A stretch of 61,804 bases of DNA from Planctomycetia bacterium (GTDB taxonomy: Bacteria; Planctomycetota; UBA8108; UBA1146). Position numbers and translations under genes: made by a program. Of this stretch, positions 3,809 to 38,462 are shown piece after piece. Within the stretch, counting starts at the first letter, position 1. The number at the start of each line of letters is the position of its first letter. Location: assembly GCA_009937185.1 (NCBI GenBank), contig JAACCY010000210.1, positions 1 to 61,804 of the forward strand, given 5' to 3'. Under the pieces are notes generated by a model that searched no databases, had not been told where the DNA came from, and saw nothing but the letters and a program-made list of their open reading frames with translations.

Positions 3809-4902
3809 AAATCTTCCATCTCTTCGCAAATCATAAGTTCACCGGTCCTGCAGACCCTGCCCTTCTCCTTGCTGCTGCTCAAAAAGATGCCGGTCACGAT
3901 GTCACTTTCATTCCCAGCACGATTTCGGATGGCGATACCAATGCTGTTCTCAATATAGCCATCGAGAGAGGACTCGATACTCGACAAGGCCTTAGACTCT
4001 CGAAGCATTTCCACTGGAAAAATACACTTCGAGACATTGGAAAACTGAGATCATGGCTAAAAGAAGATTCTCCCCATGTGATTCACTGTCATTTAAAAGG
4101 TGATCATCTCGTAGCGAGTATCGCCAAAGGATCAAGGCCAGGAGTACTCGTAAAAAGTCAGTACGATCTGGATCCTCCCAATGATTTCCGCGGCAGACTC
4201 TGTCAGCGAAATACAGATCTCTGGATCGCCCCCACCTCCAAATCTAGAGACCGATTGATCGAATGGAAGGTCGCGGCAGAGCAAACCATGGAAATGCCGC
4301 CTCCTACGGACATCGATCGATTCAGACCTTCCGACTCTGAAAAAGATCCGTTGCCGGAAACAGATGTGATAAAGGTGGGCGTCGTCGCTCGAATGCAAAG
4401 ACATCGAAGATTCCCCGAATTGATCGATGCATTCTCCAAGGCTGCCAAAACCGATCCACGCTTGGTTCTCGAAATCTTAGGCCGAGGTACTCATAAGGAA
4501 GAGGTGGCAGAAAAGCCCGCAGCAGCGAGTGGCTTAGGCGAGCGTATTCGATTCCCTGGTTACATAGATCCTTCCAGCTACCCGGAGAGATTACGCCAAT
4601 TTGATATGCTCGTGTTTCTGGTTCCCGGTTCGGATGGAACCTGCCGGGCAGCGAGAGAAGCATTAGCCTCTGGAGTTCCAGTCATCACTAGTAAAAGAGG
4701 ACTCCTTCCTGAACTGATCCCCTCAGACGCAGGACTTCACCTCCCGACAGAATCCTCTGAAGATCTGAGCTCTGCGATCCTCCGATTGTCGAATGATCCC
4801 CAAAGGCGAAGAATAATGGCCAAAAATGCACGAAAATTCGCAACCCAACATCTGGACGTGAATCGTCATATCAACACTCTAAATGACCATTTAGAGCAAT
4901 AG
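3805..4902 (+). CDS. Family 4 (GT-B) glycosyltransferase
   Basis: A 365-residue GT-B retaining glycosyltransferase. The N-terminal acceptor domain begins MKIFHLFANHKFTGPAD and contains VIHCHLKGDH. The C-terminal Rossmann domain shows KVGVVARMQRHRRFPELIDAF, LEILGRG and VPGSDGTCRAAREALASGVPVI, which matches the GT4 E-x7-E region (family knowledge). The start is TTG 3805, overlapping the preceding TGA by four bases (TTGA) behind GGAGGAGA, so translational coupling is likely. It is the last gene of the lipopolysaccharide-type operon. The sugar transferred cannot be assigned. Confidence 0.85.
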   Translation: MKIFHLFANHKFTGPADPALLLAAAQKDAGHDVTFIPSTISDGDTNAVLNIAIERGLDTRQGLRLSKHFHWKNTLRDIGKLRSWLKEDSPHVIHCHLKGDHLVASIAKGSRPGVLVKSQYDLDPPNDFRGRLCQRNTDLWIAPTSKSRDRLIEWKVAAEQTMEMPPPTDIDRFRPSDSEKDPLPETDVIKVGVVARMQRHRRFPELIDAFSKAAKTDPRLVLEILGRGTHKEEVAEKPAAASGLGERIRFPGYIDPSSYPERLRQFDMLVFLVPGSDGTCRAAREALASGVPVITSKRGLLPELIPSDAGLHLPTESSEDLSSAILRLSNDPQRRRIMAKNARKFATQHLDVNRHINTLNDHLEQ

Positions 4903-27412: not shown

Positions 27413-27667
27413 TATCCTTCCGAACTCTGATCTCGGAACGGTACTGATGGGGTGGAGATGGAGAGTCTCCGAGAAACCCCTCCCAGCACCCTCATCCGGG
27501 CCTGAGAGGCCATTGACGTCCACAGGTGTGGTCACAGAGAAGAGGAGCAAACCGGTCGAATCCGGTCAGCGTGTTATACTCCTCACGAGGGTCTTCTGGC
27601 CCGATCTTGACCGAGAGTCCCGAGCTGATGGAGGGTGCATGCCTCCATTGGACGTGTTGGAGAAGCC
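27413..27667. other. Leader region before the ECF sigma operon
   Basis: A 255-bp gap before the sigma factor gene. GGAAC at 27435-27439 resembles the -35 element of ECF promoters, and TTATACT near 27570 resembles a -10 element, but neither has a clear partner at the right spacing. Small hairpins such as GGAGATGGAGAGTCTCC and CCGGTCGAATCCGG are present. This is where an autoregulated promoter would be expected. Confidence 0.3.
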
Positions 27668-28288
27668 ATGTGTTCTGCCGAGAATAAACCTGATCGAGAT
27701 GCCACTGCCGGTGAGAGCGAAGAAATCGCTCTCGTCCGCCAGGCGATGGCAGGTGATGTATCAGCGTTTACCGAATTGGCAGAACGAATTGCTCCACTAG
27801 TCCTAGGAATGGCTCGAAGAAAAGTCGGTCGAGAAGATGCCGAAGATCTCGCACAAGAAGCGATGCTTCATCTGTGGAAGTCCTTACCCAAGATCAGAGA
27901 ACCGCAGGCGTTCTTTGGCTGGCTTACCCGGCTGGTACGTAACCGTGCCCATCGCTGGATCGAACGCCGCCAACGAAAAACTGTTGTTCTTGAGGAAGCC
28001 CGTCACGAGTTGTTACTCAGGGCTCAAACAAGATCTGAGGCGGATGACTTCACCGAGGCTGGAGAATCTGAGTCACGAGAATGGCTCGAAAGTCTCCCCG
28101 ACGAAATGCGGTTGGCCCTCACCTGGAAATATGTTGATGGTCACGATTACGAGACCATTGGCGAAAGACTCTCCCTCTCCTTTCATCAGGTCGACTACCT
28201 GATGCGACGAGCCCGAAAGGCTCTGAAATCCAGACTTGATGCCAAAAAGACATCGAGTTCAGACCGATCGAATGGAGGACGAGGATGA
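27668..28288 (+). CDS. ECF-type RNA polymerase sigma factor
   Basis: A 206-residue extracytoplasmic-function sigma factor. Region 2 includes DVSAFTELAERIAPLVLGMARRKVG, then DAEDLAQEAMLHLWKSLPKIREPQAFFGWLTRLVRNRAHRW, which is the core-binding and -10 recognition helix. Region 4 is SLPDEMRLALTWKYVDGHDYETIGERLSLSFHQVDYLMRRARKALK. ATG 27668 follows GGAGAAG. The stop overlaps the start of the anti-sigma gene (ATGA), and the two UshA-like cytochrome genes follow closely. This suggests that the sigma factor controls that operon; the link is inferred from gene order. Confidence 0.92.
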   Translation: MCSAENKPDRDATAGESEEIALVRQAMAGDVSAFTELAERIAPLVLGMARRKVGREDAEDLAQEAMLHLWKSLPKIREPQAFFGWLTRLVRNRAHRWIERRQRKTVVLEEARHELLLRAQTRSEADDFTEAGESESREWLESLPDEMRLALTWKYVDGHDYETIGERLSLSFHQVDYLMRRARKALKSRLDAKKTSSSDRSNGGRG

Positions 28289-28962
28289 GCGCAGATTCAC
28301 TCTTTTCACTACAAAGTTGCCCCACCATCGTTGAAGCTTTGCCACGCTTCCTCGACGGAGAATGTGGCCCCGTGGAAGAATCACGTGTCGCCCAGCATTT
28401 GGAGTTGTGCAGTCGATGCCGCCTTGAGCACAATCGACTCGCTCAAGACTGGCTTCAAACCATATCTGCTGTCAACGGGGTTCAATCCTCTGACGCACAA
28501 CGATTGGTCATGGCCCTCGGTGACCAACTGCCTCCCCAAAACCCCAACCCAGCCAGCGATCCATCTCCATTTGAAACCCCAACAAGTACAAGTTCTGGCC
28601 GTTGGTGGAGTATCGCCGCCTCATTCATGTTGGCGGCACTTCTGTTTTCAGGTTTGGAGAACTCTACGACACCCTCCGACCCGAAACCCGCAATGATGGC
28701 CATGACCCTCATACGAGGGGACATCGATGCCAGTGGACACTTGGACTGGGGTGATCTTCAGGGTTTGATCGATTTCCTCCAGGAAGATGGTCCCGCTCCC
28801 CGTTGCCTCGCAGCAGGTGATTTCGATGACGATGGAGTCATCACCATCGATGATTCTGTTCTTGCTCTGGCCCACCTCACTGAAGGTGCAGGACTCGACT
28901 CCACCATTCTCTACAATCAAGGGAATCAAAACGCTCTCCCCTGTTACGAACTTTGTCCCTGA
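28285..28962 (+). CDS. Transmembrane anti-sigma factor with outside dockerin-like domain
   Basis: A 225-residue single-pass membrane protein. The cytoplasmic N-terminus has a zinc-finger anti-sigma signature, HLELCSRC, with H38, C42 and C45 (H-x3-C-x2-C, the ZAS motif). One membrane helix spans about residues 108-124 (WSIAASFMLAALLFSG). The outside part is a dockerin-like domain at residues 143-201 with two EF-hand-type loops, DIDASGHLDWGD and DFDDDGVITIDD. Near the C-terminus are two Cys (ALPCYELC). It overlaps the ECF sigma gene by four bases and should hold that sigma factor at the membrane. A dockerin fold as the sensory part is unusual; it may sense calcium, a protein partner or a surface complex, which is inference. 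Confidence 0.85.
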   Translation: MSADSLFSLQSCPTIVEALPRFLDGECGPVEESRVAQHLELCSRCRLEHNRLAQDWLQTISAVNGVQSSDAQRLVMALGDQLPPQNPNPASDPSPFETPTSTSSGRWWSIAASFMLAALLFSGLENSTTPSDPKPAMMAMTLIRGDIDASGHLDWGDLQGLIDFLQEDGPAPRCLAAGDFDDDGVITIDDSVLALAHLTEGAGLDSTILYNQGNQNALPCYELCP

Positions 28963-28984: not shown

Positions 28985-30457
28985 ATGATGCCGAAACTCA
29001 GTTTTCTGATCATGATCGTGTTGCCACTATGGTGGCTTCAGGCGATGCCTGTGGAAAATCGAACAGATGATCCGGCTTCTTCTCGGGTTGTTGAGGCGGA
29101 TGAAAAAGAAGAGAAACCTTTCGTTCTTTTGGCAACAGTTCACAACTATGGTTATGTCGAACCGTGTGGCTGACCAAAGCGAAAAATCAAGCTCGGCAGT
29201 TTGTCGAGACGCCTGACCTACTTGAACTCACTGAAATCTGAAGGCATTCAGCCCTTCATCGTAGATGGCGGAGATTGGCTCTTCCATCTGAACAAGTTGC
29301 ATTCGAATCCGCTGGTCCAAAAGCAGATGGATGAAAAGGCACAGTTATTGATCGATGCGTACAATCGATTTGGTACAGCAGCCGCTTGTCTAGGAGAGCA
29401 TGACATGGCTCTGGGTCTCGATCGCTTGATCGAACTCAATGGAAAAATGAAGTTCCCTCTCCTCTGTGCCAATCTTTCACTAGAAGATGGAACAAAGCCT
29501 TTTTCCGGTAGCACTCTTCTGGAAAGCCAGGGACGTAAGGTCTTAATGGTGGGCGCGATCCAAATTCCCAATGACCGATTCATTGGCAAATACTGCCCAA
29601 AAGCATCCTTTACCGACCCTGTCGAAGCCATCAAATCAGAGATTGCCCGACAAACAGAAAAGTACGATCTCTGTATCGTCTTAGGACATATCGACAGAAC
29701 AGATGTCGACAGACTCGCGGCCGAGGTTCCTGAAATAGACGTGATAGTAGAACCCAATTCTATGTCACGAACGGAAACGACCTGGGTAAATGACGACATT
29801 AAAGCGACCGTCAATGAGGGTTGCGTCATGCTTAAGCCCAGTGGTCAAGGTTCAGAGATGGCACGTGCTGACCTATGGCTCAGAACTGATCGCCAACCTT
29901 GGTTTGATATCTGGAATGAAGAAGCTCCACCAGGAAGCAATATTGCAGATCTCTCGATCGCTGCACTTGCTCCTCACATTGGTCGACATCCTGGCATGGA
30001 AAAAATTGTTCAGGGTTTCGTGAGGTCTACTCGCTTTAAAGACCCTGGAGACATCGACCTTTCATTCAAACCTGTTACGAACTTTCTGGGAGCAACGACT
30101 TGCTCAGGGTGTCACCCTCAACAGGCAGACTTTTGGAAGAACACGGGACACGCAGATGCGTATCAGACACTCGTCGATACGGGCGACGAATTTCGCTACG
30201 ACTGCATGCCCTGTCATGTCACCGGTTATGGAGAAACCTTTGTCGATGCCCATGAACCGGGTCGCTGGAAAGACGTTCAGTGTGAAAGTTGCCATGGAAA
30301 CAATCCCCGTCATCCCATTCAGCCCAAGGCCTTTCCGTGGCCAAAGCTGGACGTGAACAAATGCTGGGCTTGCCATAATCCGAATGAGACAAGGGTCGCT
30401 TTTGATCCAGCAGAAGCCTTACCAAAGGTTTCCTGCCCGCCCATGAAAAGAAATTAA
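28985..30457 (+). CDS. Predicted selenoprotein: UshA-like domain plus tetraheme cytochrome (TGA at 29171 = Sec)
   Basis: Annotated as one 490-residue exported protein read through TGA 29171-29173 as selenocysteine 63. The signal peptide is residues 1-20 (SFLIMIVLPLWWLQA). The motif is EPCG-Sec-PKRK. The next gene, a paralogue, has DVCGC-KRKK at the same place, and both continue GSL-RR. A 7-bp hairpin at 29192-29208 fits a bacterial SECIS. Residues 50-330 resemble the UshA/5'-nucleotidase metallophosphoesterase fold (VDGGDWLF, GEHDMALGLD, VLGHIDRTD), but several metal ligands are absent. The C-terminal part is cytochrome c554-like with four CxxCH haem sites starting at residues 373, 407, 433 and 460. 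The reading frame stays open for 427 codons after the TGA. The alternative is a nonsense mutation or sequencing error. ATG 28985 is preceded by AAGAAGGA, 22 bases after the anti-sigma gene. Confidence 0.82.
29171..29173 (+). other. Recoded TGA codon, predicted selenocysteine insertion site
   Basis: The only in-frame stop inside an otherwise open frame. It aligns exactly with the TGC codon at 30738-30740 of the neighbouring paralogue, giving CG-Sec against CGC. A Cys-x-Sec pair is a common redox arrangement in selenoproteins. Confidence 0.82.
29192..29208 (+). promoter_or_regulatory. Candidate bacterial SECIS hairpin
   Basis: CTCGGCA (29192-29198) pairs with TGTCGAG (29202-29208), six Watson-Crick pairs and one G-T, around the loop GTT. 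The first loop base is G, as expected for SelB binding, and the loop begins 26 bases after the TGA. As I recall the published consensus, the apical loop lies 16-37 bases downstream with a stem of at least four pairs, so this fits. The hairpin is short; no energy calculation was run. Confidence 0.65.
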
Positions 30458-30482
30458 AGACTCGAGATTGGAAATTGAAACG

Positions 30483-32036
30483 ATGAAAACCTCGATGCTG
30501 AGATCCGCACCCAAGTTGTTGACCATCTTCGTTCTGACAGCTTTGGTACTGCCCGCACTCATTGAAGATAGTCCCTCTGCTGAAGCAAAATTAGGGACTT
30601 CAGCAGAAATCAAAAGCCGTCCCCTCATGGGTGACGACGATGCTCCTGCAGTCCCAGCTTCAACGCCATCCGCCGAAAGTCAGAACCTGTTTCTGGTCTA
30701 TTCGGTAAACAATGTGGGTTACATCGATGTCTGCGGCTGCAAACGTAAAAAAGTACGCCAAGGATCGCTCACTCGTAGGGCGTCTTACCTGAAACAGGCA
30801 AAATTTCATCATGATAATATTTGCCTACTCGATGGAGGAAATACTCTGTTTGGCCCCGACGATGGCAAGGCCAAAGACTTTGAGAAGAAGCAGTTGAAGG
30901 AAAAAGCCAAGTTAATTGTCGAGTCCTACAATCGTATGGGCTACCAATCGATGCTGGTCGGCCATCACGACATCACACTCGGCCTCGAAATTTTGCAAGA
31001 GTGTGAAAAGATGGCAAAGTTCCCCTTCCTCTCTGCAAATATGCGTTACACAGATGATAACAGTAGAGTCTTTGCCCCCACTACCGTGGTCGAATGCAAA
31101 GGTCTCAAAGTGGGTGTTTTAGGACTCACGATCGATACCATTCCGGAATACTATCTTGAGCGAGCAAATCCTGACCGCCCTCTCATGCTGACAAAAGCGA
31201 TCGATGAAGCAAAAAGCCTTGTTCCCGAGTTACGATCTCAGTGTGACATTCTGGTTCTCCTCTCCGCCAATTCTGCAGAAACCAATCGAGAGATTGCGGC
31301 TGCCGTACCAGGCATCGACGTCATCGTTGATCCCTTGATCGAACTCGGAAATCACAAAGTCTGGGTTGACGAAGAACTCAGCATGGAACAACTGGGTGAA
31401 ACCTTGATGGTACGCACAGATGCTCAAGGTGCTCGGCTCGGTACTCTCGATATCGACTGGATAGACGGAGGCAGACCGATGGTCTCCCTGTCTTTCGATA
31501 GTGCTCCACCTGCTGGACGCTCTACATACTGGTACGAGAGAGCCTCTATGGAACCGCACTTACTGGAAGACCCAGACATCATGGGTTTGGTGGAGGCCTT
31601 CAGAAAAGGATCCGCCTTTGTCAATATCGATGCTCTTCCAGAACTCCCCCACAAGGACAAGTATTTGACGGCGAGCACCTGCTCGATGTGCCATGTGGAG
31701 CAAACCGATTTCTGGAAAGGTACAACCCACGCTGATGCTTTTGCAAGTTTGGTGGAAACAGGTGATCAGTGGCGTCAGGACTGCATCGCCTGCCATGTTC
31801 TGGGTTACGGACAAGCCTTTATCGCTCCAGAAGAAGCGGAACCCTACAAGAATGTGCAGTGTGAAAACTGTCATGGACTGAATCCTGGGCACCCTCAAGA
31901 CCCCGTAAATCACCCATGGGGTGCCGTCAAGGAGACTTCGTGCCTGACATGCCACAATAAAAATCAGACTCGTATCGACTTCGTCTTTAGCCGTGAACGT
32001 CGCAAAGTGGCGTGTCCTCCGCTGAAAAGAAACTGA
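30483..32036 (+). CDS. UshA-like tetraheme cytochrome, Cys paralogue of the selenoprotein
   Basis: A 517-residue exported paralogue of the preceding gene. The signal peptide is LLTIFVLTALVLPALIEDSPSAEA. C84-G85-C86 replaces Cys-Gly-Sec. The UshA-like part shows ICLLDGGNTLFG, VGHHDITLGLEIL, VGVLGLTID and VPGIDVIVDP, again lacking some phosphoesterase ligands. Four haem motifs follow, CSMCH, CIACH, CENCH and CLTCH, with a distal His in GTTHADAF. Both paralogues end CPP-x-KRN. ATG 30483 is chosen; an in-frame TTG at 30468 is an alternative. It lies 25 bases behind the selenoprotein gene and ends at a strong terminator, so the operon runs from the sigma factor to here. Electron transfer or detoxification outside the cytoplasm is likely; the substrate is unknown. 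Confidence 0.85.
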   Translation: MKTSMLRSAPKLLTIFVLTALVLPALIEDSPSAEAKLGTSAEIKSRPLMGDDDAPAVPASTPSAESQNLFLVYSVNNVGYIDVCGCKRKKVRQGSLTRRASYLKQAKFHHDNICLLDGGNTLFGPDDGKAKDFEKKQLKEKAKLIVESYNRMGYQSMLVGHHDITLGLEILQECEKMAKFPFLSANMRYTDDNSRVFAPTTVVECKGLKVGVLGLTIDTIPEYYLERANPDRPLMLTKAIDEAKSLVPELRSQCDILVLLSANSAETNREIAAAVPGIDVIVDPLIELGNHKVWVDEELSMEQLGETLMVRTDAQGARLGTLDIDWIDGGRPMVSLSFDSAPPAGRSTYWYERASMEPHLLEDPDIMGLVEAFRKGSAFVNIDALPELPHKDKYLTASTCSMCHVEQTDFWKGTTHADAFASLVETGDQWRQDCIACHVLGYGQAFIAPEEAEPYKNVQCENCHGLNPGHPQDPVNHPWGAVKETSCLTCHNKNQTRIDFVFSRERRKVACPPLKRN

Positions 32037-32209: not shown

Positions 32210-33055
32210 ATGACGAAGAATTCAAATGTCCGAAAATTCACCACTCGAGGAGCAGGGCTTCTCTTGGTACTGCTCTTCCTCGTTGGAGGATGTGTCAGTG
32301 CGTCTGGTGGAAGTGAACGCTACAAGGAGCTGGTCGTAGAAGCCGAATGGGTCGACGGTGTCCCCGAATTTGTAGGGGATCGGCCCGGTGGCGACGAACG
32401 TGTGATCAGTATTCAAGTCCGCAATCCATCCGGCATCGATCTGGATACACGCAAATTAAGAGCCCTTCTCGCAGCTCGCGTTGAAGAAGACGGCTGGACA
32501 GTCACTCGTGACCCCGGAGAAGCCCTCTACGATCTCACTGCTGTCGTCAAGTTTTGGGGACGTAATGAAAACCTTCCCGACGATTCCAGTAAAATGGGAC
32601 AACTCTTCGGAACCGTAGCAGGCGCAGCCATCGCTAAAAATCAAGTTCGTGGCAAAGGTGACTCTACTCGTGAAAATAGTGTCATTGCTGGAGCAATCGT
32701 CGGCTCTGTTCTCGGTGAAATGCTGGACCGTAAGACTCGTAGCGAAGCATTTTCAATGATCATCGAAACCAGAATAGATGAAACTGTTGGCGGAACTGTC
32801 AGCAAAGAGCTCAAAGATAACTCACGAAAAGCTGGAGGAAGTGGAACGGCTGGGTTGCACGGAGATAACACAATTACCGCAGGCTCTGACGTCAATAAAA
32901 CCCGTATTCAGCAATCCTATGAAACATTGAGTAGTACGGTTCGGATCAAAAACACTCTCATGATCACTGCGCGCCAACGAGCCCTTACTGAAGAGATCGC
33001 ATTACCCGCGGTCGAACAACGCTTGGAACGCATTATCCCCGAAATTCTGCCATAG
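32210..33055 (+). CDS. TraT-like outer-membrane lipoprotein
   Basis: A 281-residue lipoprotein resembling TraT, the plasmid surface-exclusion and serum-resistance lipoprotein of enterobacteria. The lipobox is LVGGC. The family pattern is clear. VISIQVRNPSGIDLDTRKLRALLAARVEEDGW matches the FLQIKNTSDKDM region, ALYDLTAVVKFWG matches the AYYWIQANVL region. The Gly/Ala-rich stretches GTVAGAAIA and VIAGAIVGSVLGEMLDR match the hydrophobic middle, and FSMIIETRIDE, STVRIKNTLMITA and AVEQRLERIIPEIL match the end. It lies alone between two terminators. A chromosomal TraT homologue need not act in conjugation; a structural envelope role is more likely. Confidence 0.8.
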   Translation: MTKNSNVRKFTTRGAGLLLVLLFLVGGCVSASGGSERYKELVVEAEWVDGVPEFVGDRPGGDERVISIQVRNPSGIDLDTRKLRALLAARVEEDGWTVTRDPGEALYDLTAVVKFWGRNENLPDDSSKMGQLFGTVAGAAIAKNQVRGKGDSTRENSVIAGAIVGSVLGEMLDRKTRSEAFSMIIETRIDETVGGTVSKELKDNSRKAGGSGTAGLHGDNTITAGSDVNKTRIQQSYETLSSTVRIKNTLMITARQRALTEEIALPAVEQRLERIIPEILP

Positions 33056-34130: not shown

Positions 34131-34540
34131 TTGAACTCCATTCCAAGAGCACTCTCATATCTAAGACGATCCCCATGCCTATGACACGCCCCTCAAGTGT
34201 GTAAAGTTTAACTGTATAAAGACTTGTTGGCTAGCACGCGGACATGCGGCCAAACAGTGGATCGTGGCTCGGACAAGTTCAACAGGGATAGACCTTGTAA
34301 CAGTCGACCATAAGTTCAATAAATAAACTTGTTTAAGAAATTCCGAATACCATCGCATTATACAGTGACCGCAAAAAGATATCACGAAGAGAGTCCATAT
34401 AGAATTACATACAAAATCATTAAAGAAATCACTATACTTAACGATCATTAGATTGCTCTTGTGGGAGGGCTAATCCATTGGGATGCATTGATGTAATAAT
34501 AAGTTGCGACAGGTTGTTCTTGGATTTCATTCCTAAGAGT
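34131..34540. other. AT-rich intergenic region at the left edge of a low-GC island
   Basis: About 410 bp without a convincing gene between divergent genes. Base composition drops here, with runs such as AATAAATAAACTTG. A weak promoter-like CTATACTTAACG lies near 34430. No integrase, inverted terminal repeat or tRNA edge was found. Confidence 0.4.
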
Positions 34541-36337
34541 ATGTCCGACTTTTTTTCACGAGTACTCAAAATCGCCGCTATGGCTTCAATATCGCTGACT
34601 TTTATTCCAGCTTGTAGTTCCGACAACAAACAAAAGCCGATATCTAATTCTAAACTTGAAATAAACACGCCATTAGAAAATGAATCCCTAACCCAGAACG
34701 ATGCTGATAATAAAAACCCCCCATCAAAAACAGCACTCAATCCTTGGCTCGTAGACGTAACACAGCAAAGTGGAATTGATTTCACATACAAAATTCATTC
34801 CGAAACAGCAGGCCCCCTGATTGCCGCAGTGGGATCAGGAATAGCAATTTTCGATGCCGACGGTGATTCCGATCTAGATGTCTATTTGGCCCAAGCGAGC
34901 GATACCCTTCCAAAGGGAACTCCGAGTAAAGCGGGAATGAATAGATTTTTCGAACAGATCGCTCCGATGAAATTCATCGACTCTACCGAAGGCAGTGGTC
35001 TCGCAGACGAAGGCTTTACGATGGGAGTGGCGTCTGGTGACTATAATAATGATGGACTTCCTGACATTTACGTGTGCAACAATGGCCAAGATCATCTTTA
35101 TAAAAACCTCGGAGGAGGACAATTCACTAATGTCACCACTGAAGCGGGCATAGATATTCAAGGAACTTCTGTCTCCGCAGGATGGTTAGACTATGACCTC
35201 GATGGAGACCTTGATTTATACGTCACTCAATACGTTGAGTATGACATTAAAACTCAGTGCACTGACGCTGCTGGAAGAAAAGAATTTTGTGGGCCAAAAG
35301 CGTTTCCGCCATCTAAGGATGTCCTACTACAGAACACCGGAGACGGTAAGTTCATTGACGTATCAACAGAATCCGGAATTAATAAAATTGCAGCGGCTAG
35401 TCTTGGCGTTGTTTTTCTCGATCAGAACGCTGATGGTTTGATGGACATCTATGTTGCCAATGACGCATACGCGAACAACCTCTATGTAAACCAAGGTGAC
35501 GGAAAGTTCGTTGATTTGGCTCCGATATTAGGGGCCGCTTTAAATATGAACGGACAAAAAGAGGCCGGAATGGGAGTCATTGCTGCAGATTTTGACAATG
35601 ATTCATTGCTGGATCTATTTGTGACGCACCTCGTCATGGAAAGTAATACCATTTATAAGAATCTTGGATCCAATATTGGATTCAATGACACCACCGGGCA
35701 ATCGGGATTGGCAACAAGCAGCATGGCATTTACAGGCTTCGGCGTGAGTGCCATGGACCTAGAACTGGATGGGGATCTCGATCTTTTCATTGCAAATGGC
35801 AAAGTCACTCGAGGAGACTCGATATTCAAATGTAATACACCACCACCCTTCACTGAATATTCGGAACCCAATCACATATACTTGAATGACGGATCCGGGA
35901 AATTCAACATAGACAAAAATCCACTCTGTGAGTTCTCAAAAGACGTCAGAACCAGCAGAAGTATTGTTCATGCGGATCTGGATCGGGATGGAGATCTTGA
36001 TCTCATCGTATCTAATTGTCAGGAACCCACACAAATCTTTCGGAATGACGCGCCGAGATCAGGTCAATGGCTGGTCGTCGACTTGCTAGGAATAAAAGGT
36101 GGGCCCGTCACAGAGGGTGCCACTGTTATGGCCCAAGACGGCGAGGAAATACTGACGAGAACATTCACGACCTGTAAAGGTTACGCATCAGCTTTCCCTG
36201 CTGAAGTTCACTTCGGAGCAGTAAATCCAGGAAACAACATTGAAGTGATCTGGCCTGGCGGAATACGTGAAAATTTTAATATTGAGAAATGGAACCAAAG
36301 AGTTCAGTTGACCTATGGAGAAGGAGAAACAAAGTGA
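34541..36337 (+). CDS. ASPIC/UnbV-type FG-GAP lipoprotein (CRTAC1-like)
   Basis: A 598-residue secreted protein of the FG-GAP plus ASPIC/UnbV (CRTAC1-like) class. The signal ends in a possible lipobox, FIPAC. The body holds VCBS/FG-GAP repeats with calcium-type loops: IFDADGDSDLDVYLA, GDYNNDGLPDIYVCNNG, DYDLDGDLDLYVTQYV, DQNADGLMDIYVAND, ADFDNDSLLDLFVTH, DLELDGDLDLFIANG and DLDRDGDLDLIVSN. The C-terminus matches ASPIC/UnbV: GQWLVVDLLGIKGGPVTEGATV, then EVHFGAVNPGNNIEVIWPGG. Family function is unproven. ATG 34541 is preferred over an in-frame ATG at 34478. It overlaps the first TPR gene by four bases (GTGA), a pairing common in planctomycetes. Confidence 0.88.
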   Translation: MSDFFSRVLKIAAMASISLTFIPACSSDNKQKPISNSKLEINTPLENESLTQNDADNKNPPSKTALNPWLVDVTQQSGIDFTYKIHSETAGPLIAAVGSGIAIFDADGDSDLDVYLAQASDTLPKGTPSKAGMNRFFEQIAPMKFIDSTEGSGLADEGFTMGVASGDYNNDGLPDIYVCNNGQDHLYKNLGGGQFTNVTTEAGIDIQGTSVSAGWLDYDLDGDLDLYVTQYVEYDIKTQCTDAAGRKEFCGPKAFPPSKDVLLQNTGDGKFIDVSTESGINKIAAASLGVVFLDQNADGLMDIYVANDAYANNLYVNQGDGKFVDLAPILGAALNMNGQKEAGMGVIAADFDNDSLLDLFVTHLVMESNTIYKNLGSNIGFNDTTGQSGLATSSMAFTGFGVSAMDLELDGDLDLFIANGKVTRGDSIFKCNTPPPFTEYSEPNHIYLNDGSGKFNIDKNPLCEFSKDVRTSRSIVHADLDRDGDLDLIVSNCQEPTQIFRNDAPRSGQWLVVDLLGIKGGPVTEGATVMAQDGEEILTRTFTTCKGYASAFPAEVHFGAVNPGNNIEVIWPGGIRENFNIEKWNQRVQLTYGEGETK

Positions 36338-37464
36338 CCCATCAAATAAATTCTTTTCTACAATTGAAGACTTTAATTTTATTAGTCATTTTTTCTTCTA
36401 TTTTCAGTACTACTAAATCATTTTCTCAAGTCACCCACGAAGATATTCAAACTATCATCTCTGGAGAAATCGCTCTGCCTGTTAAAAATGCGATTTTAGG
36501 TAGTTATTCATTTGCGAAGGACGCGCCCGCAGACTTCAAAGCGCAACTTCAACTCGCCAAAGTTTTGGCCAGTCACGATTTTCACAAATGGGCCCAAGTT
36601 CAATACATGGAGGCTATCAAACTCAATCCAGATAACATGGAAGCTCACTACTTAAGCGGAATCAGCCTCGAGCTTTTGGGCGAATCGGAATCTTCTCTTG
36701 CCCAATATCAAAAGTGCGCTGAGCTCGACCCTGACTACGCCCCTCTATCTTTCAGGATCGGAGAGTTGTTAGGCCGAGCAGGACAGCTTGAAGCTTCTGT
36801 AGAGCACTTGAAGAAATATACTCAGAAACGGCCTGATTGCGCAGCGGGACAGCGACGACTTGCACAAAGTCTCATCTCTGCCGAAAGGTACACTGAAGCC
36901 GAGAAATACTTATCGAAGGTTCTCTTGGTTCATCCGAATGAAAAAACTAGCCTCAACTCTATGGCAACAGTTCAATTACGATTAGGTAATATGGAAGCGC
37001 TTACTGAGTACCAAAAATTACTTGTAAAAGACGATGTAGAAAATATCGCTTTTCCGATCACAGATATAATTAACTTCACTGTGGAATTACTAAATAAAAG
37101 CCCTAATTTTTGGGTGGAAAAATCTGAAGTTTTCGACAAAGCCAATCAATTATGTAGCTCAATTGTATGTCTAGAAATCGCGCATGAAGGACGCCCTAGT
37201 GATCCGGTGATCATAGACCGCATTGGTAGAAATTATCTTCGCTTGGGGAAATATCGAAAAGCGGTGCGATACTTTAATAGCAGTCTCAATATCGACGGCT
37301 CACGAACTATCACGCTTCACAATCGAGCCTTGGCTTTCATCGAAATAGGAATGATTCAAAGCGCAATCAAAGACGTCGATTTAATCTACGTCTTAGAACC
37401 TGATAACAAGAGGTCTTCCGGACTTAAGGAAAAGTTAGACACCGTGAATCGAGGTCGTCAATGA
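36334..37464 (+). CDS. Exported TPR-repeat protein
   Basis: A 376-residue protein with signal peptide core LILLVIFSSIFSTTKSFSQ followed by tetratricopeptide repeats, for example AQVQYMEAIKLNPDNMEAHYLSGISLELLG, APLSFRIGELLGRAGQLEASVEHL and YLRLGKYRKAVRYFNSSLNIDG. GTG 36334 shares bases with the preceding stop and follows AGGAGA at good spacing; an ATG at 36289 would lack a signal peptide start. TPRs mediate protein contacts, so it probably partners the ASPIC/UnbV protein upstream. The low GC content matches its operon neighbours. Confidence 0.85.
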   Translation: MTHQINSFLQLKTLILLVIFSSIFSTTKSFSQVTHEDIQTIISGEIALPVKNAILGSYSFAKDAPADFKAQLQLAKVLASHDFHKWAQVQYMEAIKLNPDNMEAHYLSGISLELLGESESSLAQYQKCAELDPDYAPLSFRIGELLGRAGQLEASVEHLKKYTQKRPDCAAGQRRLAQSLISAERYTEAEKYLSKVLLVHPNEKTSLNSMATVQLRLGNMEALTEYQKLLVKDDVENIAFPITDIINFTVELLNKSPNFWVEKSEVFDKANQLCSSIVCLEIAHEGRPSDPVIIDRIGRNYLRLGKYRKAVRYFNSSLNIDGSRTITLHNRALAFIEIGMIQSAIKDVDLIYVLEPDNKRSSGLKEKLDTVNRGRQ

Positions 37465-38462
37465 TCTTTAGTCCCAAATTCCATTTACCCATCATTATTC
37501 TCTTCATGATTCAATTGCTACTGACAGGCTGCTCACCCAATGAGCCGCTTCCCCCAGTGTCAAAACTGCGCCCAGAGACGATTATCGATTCTCTACAAAA
37601 AGAGATGATTTCTAAATTTGAATCTCTGGCTTTAAGATCTCCAGATAATGCCATTTCACGTGGGAAGTATGCATTTGCTTTGTTCGAGAATGGAGCATTT
37701 CAAGAATCTTCAGATGAGTTCAAAGCAGCAGCTCTTCTTGATAAGAATAATCCACTATGGGATTACCGCGCGGCACGATCTATCGCTATGTTGGGAAACA
37801 TTGAAAGCGCGAACGAAAAACTAGTTAAACTTTGTAATAATTTCCCGGATTACCTTCCAGCACGTCACTACTTAGCAACAAGTCTTCTTGATTCTGGAAA
37901 CATTGAAAAAGCTCGCGAACAAATAAATCAATGCTTGGCACTCTCTCCTTCTTCATTCCCGCTAAAAACAACTCTTGCAGAAATTTCACTCGAAAGCGGT
38001 CAACCTGAAATAGCCCTAGAAATCCTTACTGAGATTACGAATTCTGACAGACAAAACCCCTACCCTTTTTATCTTCTAGGAAAAACTTATCTAATTTTAC
38101 AAATTGTAGCCACGAGTGATATTGAGAATATTTTAAGAAACTCTTTAGATTCCGAGAGAGTTATTCTTAAAGACAAAACAGAACGCTCCATGAAAGGCTT
38201 GAAAACAGGCCTTCAAGTAGAGGTCAATAATTGTTTATTTAGTCTGCAACGAAAGAATTGGAACCAAGCGACCGTTGCGATTCAAAAGGCATACAAGCGG
38301 TTCCCGAATGATTTTCAGGTTCTAGGACTATTCGCTCAATGCCTTCACATCAATGGACGCACGAATGAAGCGTTCACATTGATTCAGAAGATTCCACTGA
38401 CGTTCCGAAATAACCAAATCAATCTGTTACTCGATAACATCCGTAAGAAACTAAACGGATAG
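37461..38462 (+). CDS. TPR-repeat lipoprotein
   Basis: A 333-residue lipoprotein (lipobox LLLTGC at residue 24) with tetratricopeptide-like repeats, such as NAISRGKYAFALFENGAFQESSDEF, LPARHYLATSLLDSGNIEKAREQI and LKTTLAEISLESGQPEIALEIL. Its ATG overlaps the stop of the previous TPR gene (ATGA), so the three genes form a coupled operon. Together they look like one envelope-associated assembly of unknown purpose. Confidence 0.85.
   Translation: MIFSPKFHLPIIILFMIQLLLTGCSPNEPLPPVSKLRPETIIDSLQKEMISKFESLALRSPDNAISRGKYAFALFENGAFQESSDEFKAAALLDKNNPLWDYRAARSIAMLGNIESANEKLVKLCNNFPDYLPARHYLATSLLDSGNIEKAREQINQCLALSPSSFPLKTTLAEISLESGQPEIALEILTEITNSDRQNPYPFYLLGKTYLILQIVATSDIENILRNSLDSERVILKDKTERSMKGLKTGLQVEVNNCLFSLQRKNWNQATVAIQKAYKRFPNDFQVLGLFAQCLHINGRTNEAFTLIQKIPLTFRNNQINLLLDNIRKKLNG

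Follow-up and report, generated by a model that had tools for sequence, protein, structure and literature searches.

A predicted UshA-like tetrahaem selenoprotein and its cysteine-containing twin in a conserved planctomycete gene cluster

Gene layout of the locus

The window analysed here comprises 61,804 nucleotides of a planctomycete contig (JAACCY010000210.1), which belongs to a metagenome-assembled genome (MAG) of 2.77 Mb and 87% completeness, called G000 below. The following genes and features lie on the forward strand of the window:

27635-28288 (+): ECF-type sigma factor gene, first in a conserved cluster (PF04542, PF08281 and synteny; homology search from 27671)
28285-28962 (+): zinc-finger anti-sigma-like gene of the zf-HC2 kind (PF13490, 37.1 bits, and synteny), sharing 4 bases with the sigma gene
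28985-30457 (+): gene for the predicted UshA-like tetrahaem selenoprotein (Sec copy), 490 residues with the TGA read through, kept in 23 aligned homologous copies
29096-29882 (+): UshA-like metallophosphoesterase-fold domain, extent approximate (NF041198 positions 16-238; UshA, CD73 and SoxB matches in the PDB by profile and by fold)
29171-29173 (+): in-frame TGA, predicted Sec 63 of Cys-Gly-Sec (aligned with a Cys of the paralogue; TGA in 23/23 homologous copies)
29192-29208 (+): predicted bacterial SECIS hairpin of 7 bp, 25 nt downstream of the TGA, with loop GUU at 29199-29201 (Cys copies as control)
30098-30388 (+): four CxxCH haem motifs (C373, C407, C433, C460), cytochrome c554-like (PF13435; NF041198 positions 401-512)
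30468-32036 (+): Cys paralogue (CGC) with four CxxCH motifs (NF041198, 302.8 bits), neighbour of the Sec copy across genomes

An AAGGA-like ribosome site was found upstream of the ATG of the 28985-30457 gene, and the frame that follows is interrupted solely by the TGA at 29171-29173. When this codon is read as Sec, the protein has 490 residues with the TGA at residue 63, and a hydrophobic, signal-like N-terminus is followed by the UshA-like domain and then by the four CxxCH motifs. The single TGA that, according to the initial annotation, divides an otherwise open frame was thus confirmed, and so was the expected consequence: translation with table 11 produced a 62-codon stub and a TTG-started ORF of 418 aa at 29201-30457. 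Automatic annotation would split the gene in this way, which is corrected here. The Sec copy would be exported, and its CxxCH motifs would be loaded with haem.

The downstream paralogue, whose probable true start is the ATG at 30483, showed the same layout as the Sec copy at 35% identity. In the alignment of the two, Cys-Gly-TGA faces Cys-Gly-Cys, as had been noticed from the sequence at the outset. In the tree a single branch (99/95) separated all Sec copies from Cys copies, so that the duplication is apparently as old as the class sampled; judged from these sequences, the Sec/Cys tandem pair appears to be ancient.

Where the contig reached far enough, almost every genome of the order retained the arrangement ECF sigma factor, zf-HC2 anti-sigma factor, Sec copy and Cys copy, and several further families of the class still have a sigma gene upstream of the pair. 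This cluster is apparently new to the literature, and the sigma/anti-sigma pair may regulate the Sec/Cys pair. Zinc anti-sigma factors of the zf-HC2 kind act as thiol-redox sensors in some bacteria, for example RsrA in Streptomyces, and a sensor of this sort would fit well with a redox module.

Some further features were seen around the cluster. By eye, the C-terminal half of the anti-sigma-like protein (28285-28962) resembles a dockerin or EF-hand-like repeat pair (DIDASGHLDWGDLQGLIDFL, GDFDDDGVITIDDSVLALAHL); Pfam returned zf-HC2 only. Directly 3' of the pair, at 32210-33055 of the window, lies a gene for a TraT-like lipoprotein (PF05818, 76 bits), which was kept in most genomes of family f1 with a contig reaching that far and was not detected in genome G003. 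The stretch 34478-38462 encodes a UnbV/ASPIC FG-GAP protein and, after it, two TPR proteins, and is partly conserved beside the cluster within the genus.

Decoding of the in-frame TGA

The upstream (Sec) copy was present in 16 of the 17 genomes of the order, with TGA in all 16, and 7 further loci, located in other families within the class, have TGA at the corresponding codon. At residue 63, the position at which homologues were to be compared, TGA was thus found in 23/23 Sec copies and Cys in the paralogues. A scan of genome contigs with a single protein revealed only two close relatives, JADHSM010000002.1 and NHDG01000069.1, both Planctomycetota MAGs.

When G000 was compared with the more distant genomes, synonymous sites were saturated and nonsynonymous differences were lower in the UshA and haem parts, which indicates that translation continues in frame beyond the TGA and that selection acts there on the encoded protein. 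Against the near-twin genome G012, omega was 0.087 for the UshA domain downstream of the TGA, revealing strong constraint. The 41 codons compared upstream of the motif were more weakly constrained, as expected for a leader and linker.

The predicted hairpin, with its GUU loop, 7 bp and 25 nt spacing, agrees in every criterion with the bacterial SECIS model (PMC13188914, Fig. 2). Its folding energy was -9.0 to -11.7 kcal/mol, varying with the stretch that was folded. The loop reads GU(U/C) across the Sec copies, and the register of the hairpin was unchanged in most relatives; in G001, G003 and G004 the fold was slightly shifted, with a 6-nt loop and a spacing of 24 nt from the TGA, and the best-scoring fold of G011 and G015 was a different one. 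Across 20 distinct Sec sequences, standard pairs occupied 92.1% of the pair cells, and sliding the partner strand by 1 to 3 columns lowered this value to 28-47%. In the Cys copies (15 distinct sequences) 48.6% of the cells were paired and the hairpin was absent.

One stem pair was C-G in 10 and G-C in the other 10 of the 20 distinct Sec sequences, with both sides at synonymous positions (Leu codons and, for most, Ser codons); covariation on both sides is limited to this pair and may reflect one or few evolutionary events. Furthermore, the codon of Ser72, which supplies the loop G, was AGT in 20/20 distinct Sec rows and TCN or AGC in the Cys copies. Taken alone, the single window sequence was no more stable than its shuffles (z -0.27), and an Rfam search of the window returned tRNA only. 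Across the aligned copies, the hairpin provides RNA-level evidence for TGA decoding throughout a planctomycete class.

Components of the Sec pathway were recovered broadly, tRNA-Sec in 25 of the 28 genomes searched and selA in 46 of 59. In G000, contig C70 holds the tRNA-Sec gene (anticodon TCA) beside selA and selD; selB is located on contig C201. Just 3' of the tRNA-Sec gene, at positions 4228-4345 of locus L017 on C70, there is a short tandem repeat of TCTCTGAACTCAGTT-like units.

The presence of the sel genes, on which the initial annotation had made its proposal depend, was borne out for the lineage and only partly upheld in this MAG. selB, selD and tRNA-Sec were intact, and selD has an in-frame TGA of its own near the start (Cys-Ala-Gly-Sec). 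selA was found (C70:13854-15215; locus L017, 1474-2880), but it contains a TAA at codon 164 and a TGA at codon 382. Both stop codons are TTA in the 97% identical selA of G012, and the remaining changed selA codons between the two genomes amount to 36 synonymous and 5 nonsynonymous ones. In about 58 real-looking ORFs compared between G000 and G012 no other clear mid-gene stop was seen; the others were near or before plausible starts.

The lineage might thus encode a selenoprotein while this strain has just lost the Sec pathway through a broken selA, the TGA now acting as a stop and only the stub being made. Such a loss is suggested by the two in-frame stops in the one selA recovered and by the lack of mid-gene stops in the other real-looking genes compared. 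Against it, the excess of synonymous over nonsynonymous changes in selA indicates constraint until very recently, selB, selD (with its Sec TGA) and tRNA-Sec are all in place, the UshA domain 3' of the TGA is still constrained at the omega given above, and consensus errors are possible in a MAG. We consider loss in this strain quite improbable. Either the selA stops are a local artefact of assembly or consensus calling, or this strain lost the pathway very recently; both cases leave the lineage-level conclusion untouched: Sec decoding is near-certain in the lineage and likely in this very strain.

We dismiss the views that the TGA reflects an error of sequencing, marks a pseudogene or specifies some other amino acid in a variant code. 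Nothing beyond the bare in-frame stop speaks for them; against them, the TGA is kept in 23/23 copies with a matching hairpin, tRNA-Sec, selB and selD are present, and TGA terminates the neighbouring genes, so that neither a genome-wide reassignment nor a code change has taken place.

Family membership and state of the UshA-like fold

Searched with the NCBIfam profile NF041198 (UshA_like_PCGU, curated cut-off 275), the Sec copy scored 230.6 bits and the Cys copy 302.8 bits; the Sec copy of G021, a genome of the same class, reached 277.1. The Sec copy is a member of the wider CxU family that falls under the threshold of the named equivalog model. In 145 of 392 sampled Planctomycetota genomes the profile was matched at an E-value of 1e-30 or better, and 33 exceeded the cut-off.

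The profile has 519 positions, and positions 401-512 match the haem tail at 30071-30388; the haem fusion is consequently a trait of the known family. PF13435 (cytochrome c554 family) also matched the tail, with 51 bits against a gathering cut-off of 20.8, and several of the distant Planctomycetota family members inspected combine EPCGC with four haems. The combination of UshA-like domain and tetrahaem tail in a selenoprotein was therefore borne out by the profile matches and the four CxxCH motifs, but the fusion is not peculiar to the window gene. A further distant family member (G017:C11:61239-62000, locus L121; G019:C144:15615-16376, locus L124) has one in-frame TGA within a frame of about 710 residues.

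The UshA-like CxU selenoprotein (COG0737) was reported in 2008 with 76 Sec sequences from Global Ocean Sampling data (Zhang and Gladyshev, PMC2398784). A review of 2026 (PMC13188914) includes it together with NF041198, and the UshA-like (seleno)protein family appears also in PMC9312934. The suggestion in the initial annotation that such a family may already be annotated was correct, and the window gene is a new, somewhat divergent member of a family catalogued since 2008. We found no discussion of the haem tail or of the gene cluster in the papers on this family that were consulted, and literature searches for Sec in combination with multihaem cytochromes, or for planctomycete UshA-like selenoproteins, yielded no relevant publication. 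Altogether, we are highly confident that the gene encodes a Sec-decoded, haem-bearing UshA-like protein.

Both profile and structure matches in the PDB assign the domain to the UshA/CD73/SoxB fold. Only the fold can be taken from the AlphaFold model, in which the CGU loop (residues 61-70) and the haem part are mostly below 50 pLDDT. Cys-Gly-Sec is placed just after the stretch that holds the first metal-ligand motif in UshA. With the motifs placed by eye, this first motif, DxH, has become (H/N)N and GHxH is absent. The bridging Asp, likewise placed by eye, is represented in the Cys copies by Asn, Ser or Gly (GGD to GGN/S), and GNH(D/E) has changed to GEH or GPx. With most of the di-metal site lost in this way, di-metal hydrolysis is unlikely, and as far as can be read from the sequences the UshA-fold domain is most likely not a hydrolase. 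As a default assignment, 5'-nucleotidase function was rejected because the di-metal ligands DxH and GHxH are gone.

Other positions were strictly kept. The motif CG[U/C] was invariant in 43 copies (CGU at 61-63 of the window protein). N54, G56, D94, N127, N163, the haem motifs and the C-terminal Cys484 were invariant as well. Position 161 is a Cys in 23/23 Sec copies, and most Cys copies have Ser there.

Proposed function and relation to known systems

We propose that SelB reads UGA 63 as Sec, aided by the hairpin downstream, and that the product would belong to the known UshA-like 'PCGU' selenoproteins, as an exported protein with four c-type haems. Its Cys-Gly-Sec motif would probably perform selenol/thiol redox chemistry via a selenenylsulfide cycle, perhaps with the Cys161 that is specific to Sec copies, and electrons may pass between it and the haems of the protein, either direction of flow being conceivable. 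A redox role for Sec beside haem is reasonable, and we regard thiol/selenol chemistry as a fairly probable function. Direct electron exchange between Cys-Gly-Sec and the haems is a more tentative suggestion, which we hold to be slightly less likely than not. Rather than a nucleotidase, the protein probably represents a haem-wired selenol/thiol redox protein of the periplasm.

In its widest form the proposal would describe a selenol that occupies the vacated metal site of a phosphoesterase fold, wired directly to haems within one polypeptide, accompanied by a Cys twin and placed under a thiol-sensing zinc anti-sigma factor, altogether a periplasmic module for redox defence or for sulfur or metalloid redox reactions. 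We offer this complete picture as a speculation that is rather unlikely to hold in all its parts. If true, a selenol-haem redox module with a Cys twin would so far have no biochemically characterised counterpart.

A special case of the selenol/thiol redox explanation, with a named substrate class, would be a sulfur-chemistry enzyme with SoxB-like action on bound persulfide, thiosulfonate or polysulfide, in which Cys-Gly-Sec forms the nucleophile pair and the haems accept electrons. The SoxB profile indeed matched 27 of 28 family members (best 2.7e-23), and SoxB 2wdc was among the fold matches, but UshA and CD73 matched equally well or better among solved structures. Moreover, SoxB hydrolysis needs a di-metal site, the ligands of which are lost in the window family, and no sox genes were seen beside the pair. 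Such an enzyme thus seems improbable, and we favour the selenol/thiol redox protein with the substrate class left unnamed.

The conserved cluster of ECF sigma factor, zinc anti-sigma factor, Sec copy and Cys copy offers a handle on the function of a selenoprotein family that has been listed since 2008, and the natural side-by-side Sec/Cys pair is a good system for studying what Sec adds over Cys near haem.

Several known systems share parts of this architecture. The UshA and CD73 5'-nucleotidases have the fold in common with the window domain, but they carry a second domain where the window protein has its haem tail, and their metal ligands DxH and GHxH are lost in the window family, with the bridging Asp variable. 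The thiosulfohydrolase SoxB has a homologous domain, the metal site of which is not kept here, and no sox genes were seen beside the window family. The tetrahaem tail matches the cytochrome c554 family (PF13435) above its cut-off, but is fused to a UshA-like domain. The multihaem selenoprotein ExtKL (NF040886) provides an earlier example of a multihaem c-type cytochrome with Sec, and one member of the window family matches it weakly, presumably via the haem part. Closest is the NF041198 family, which like the window gene has CGU or CGC after a conserved GY, the UshA-like fold, the four-haem tail, Sec/Cys alternation and a marine origin. Unlike that family as modelled, the window Sec copy scores under the cut-off and stands in a tandem Sec/Cys pair within an ECF sigma/anti-sigma cluster.
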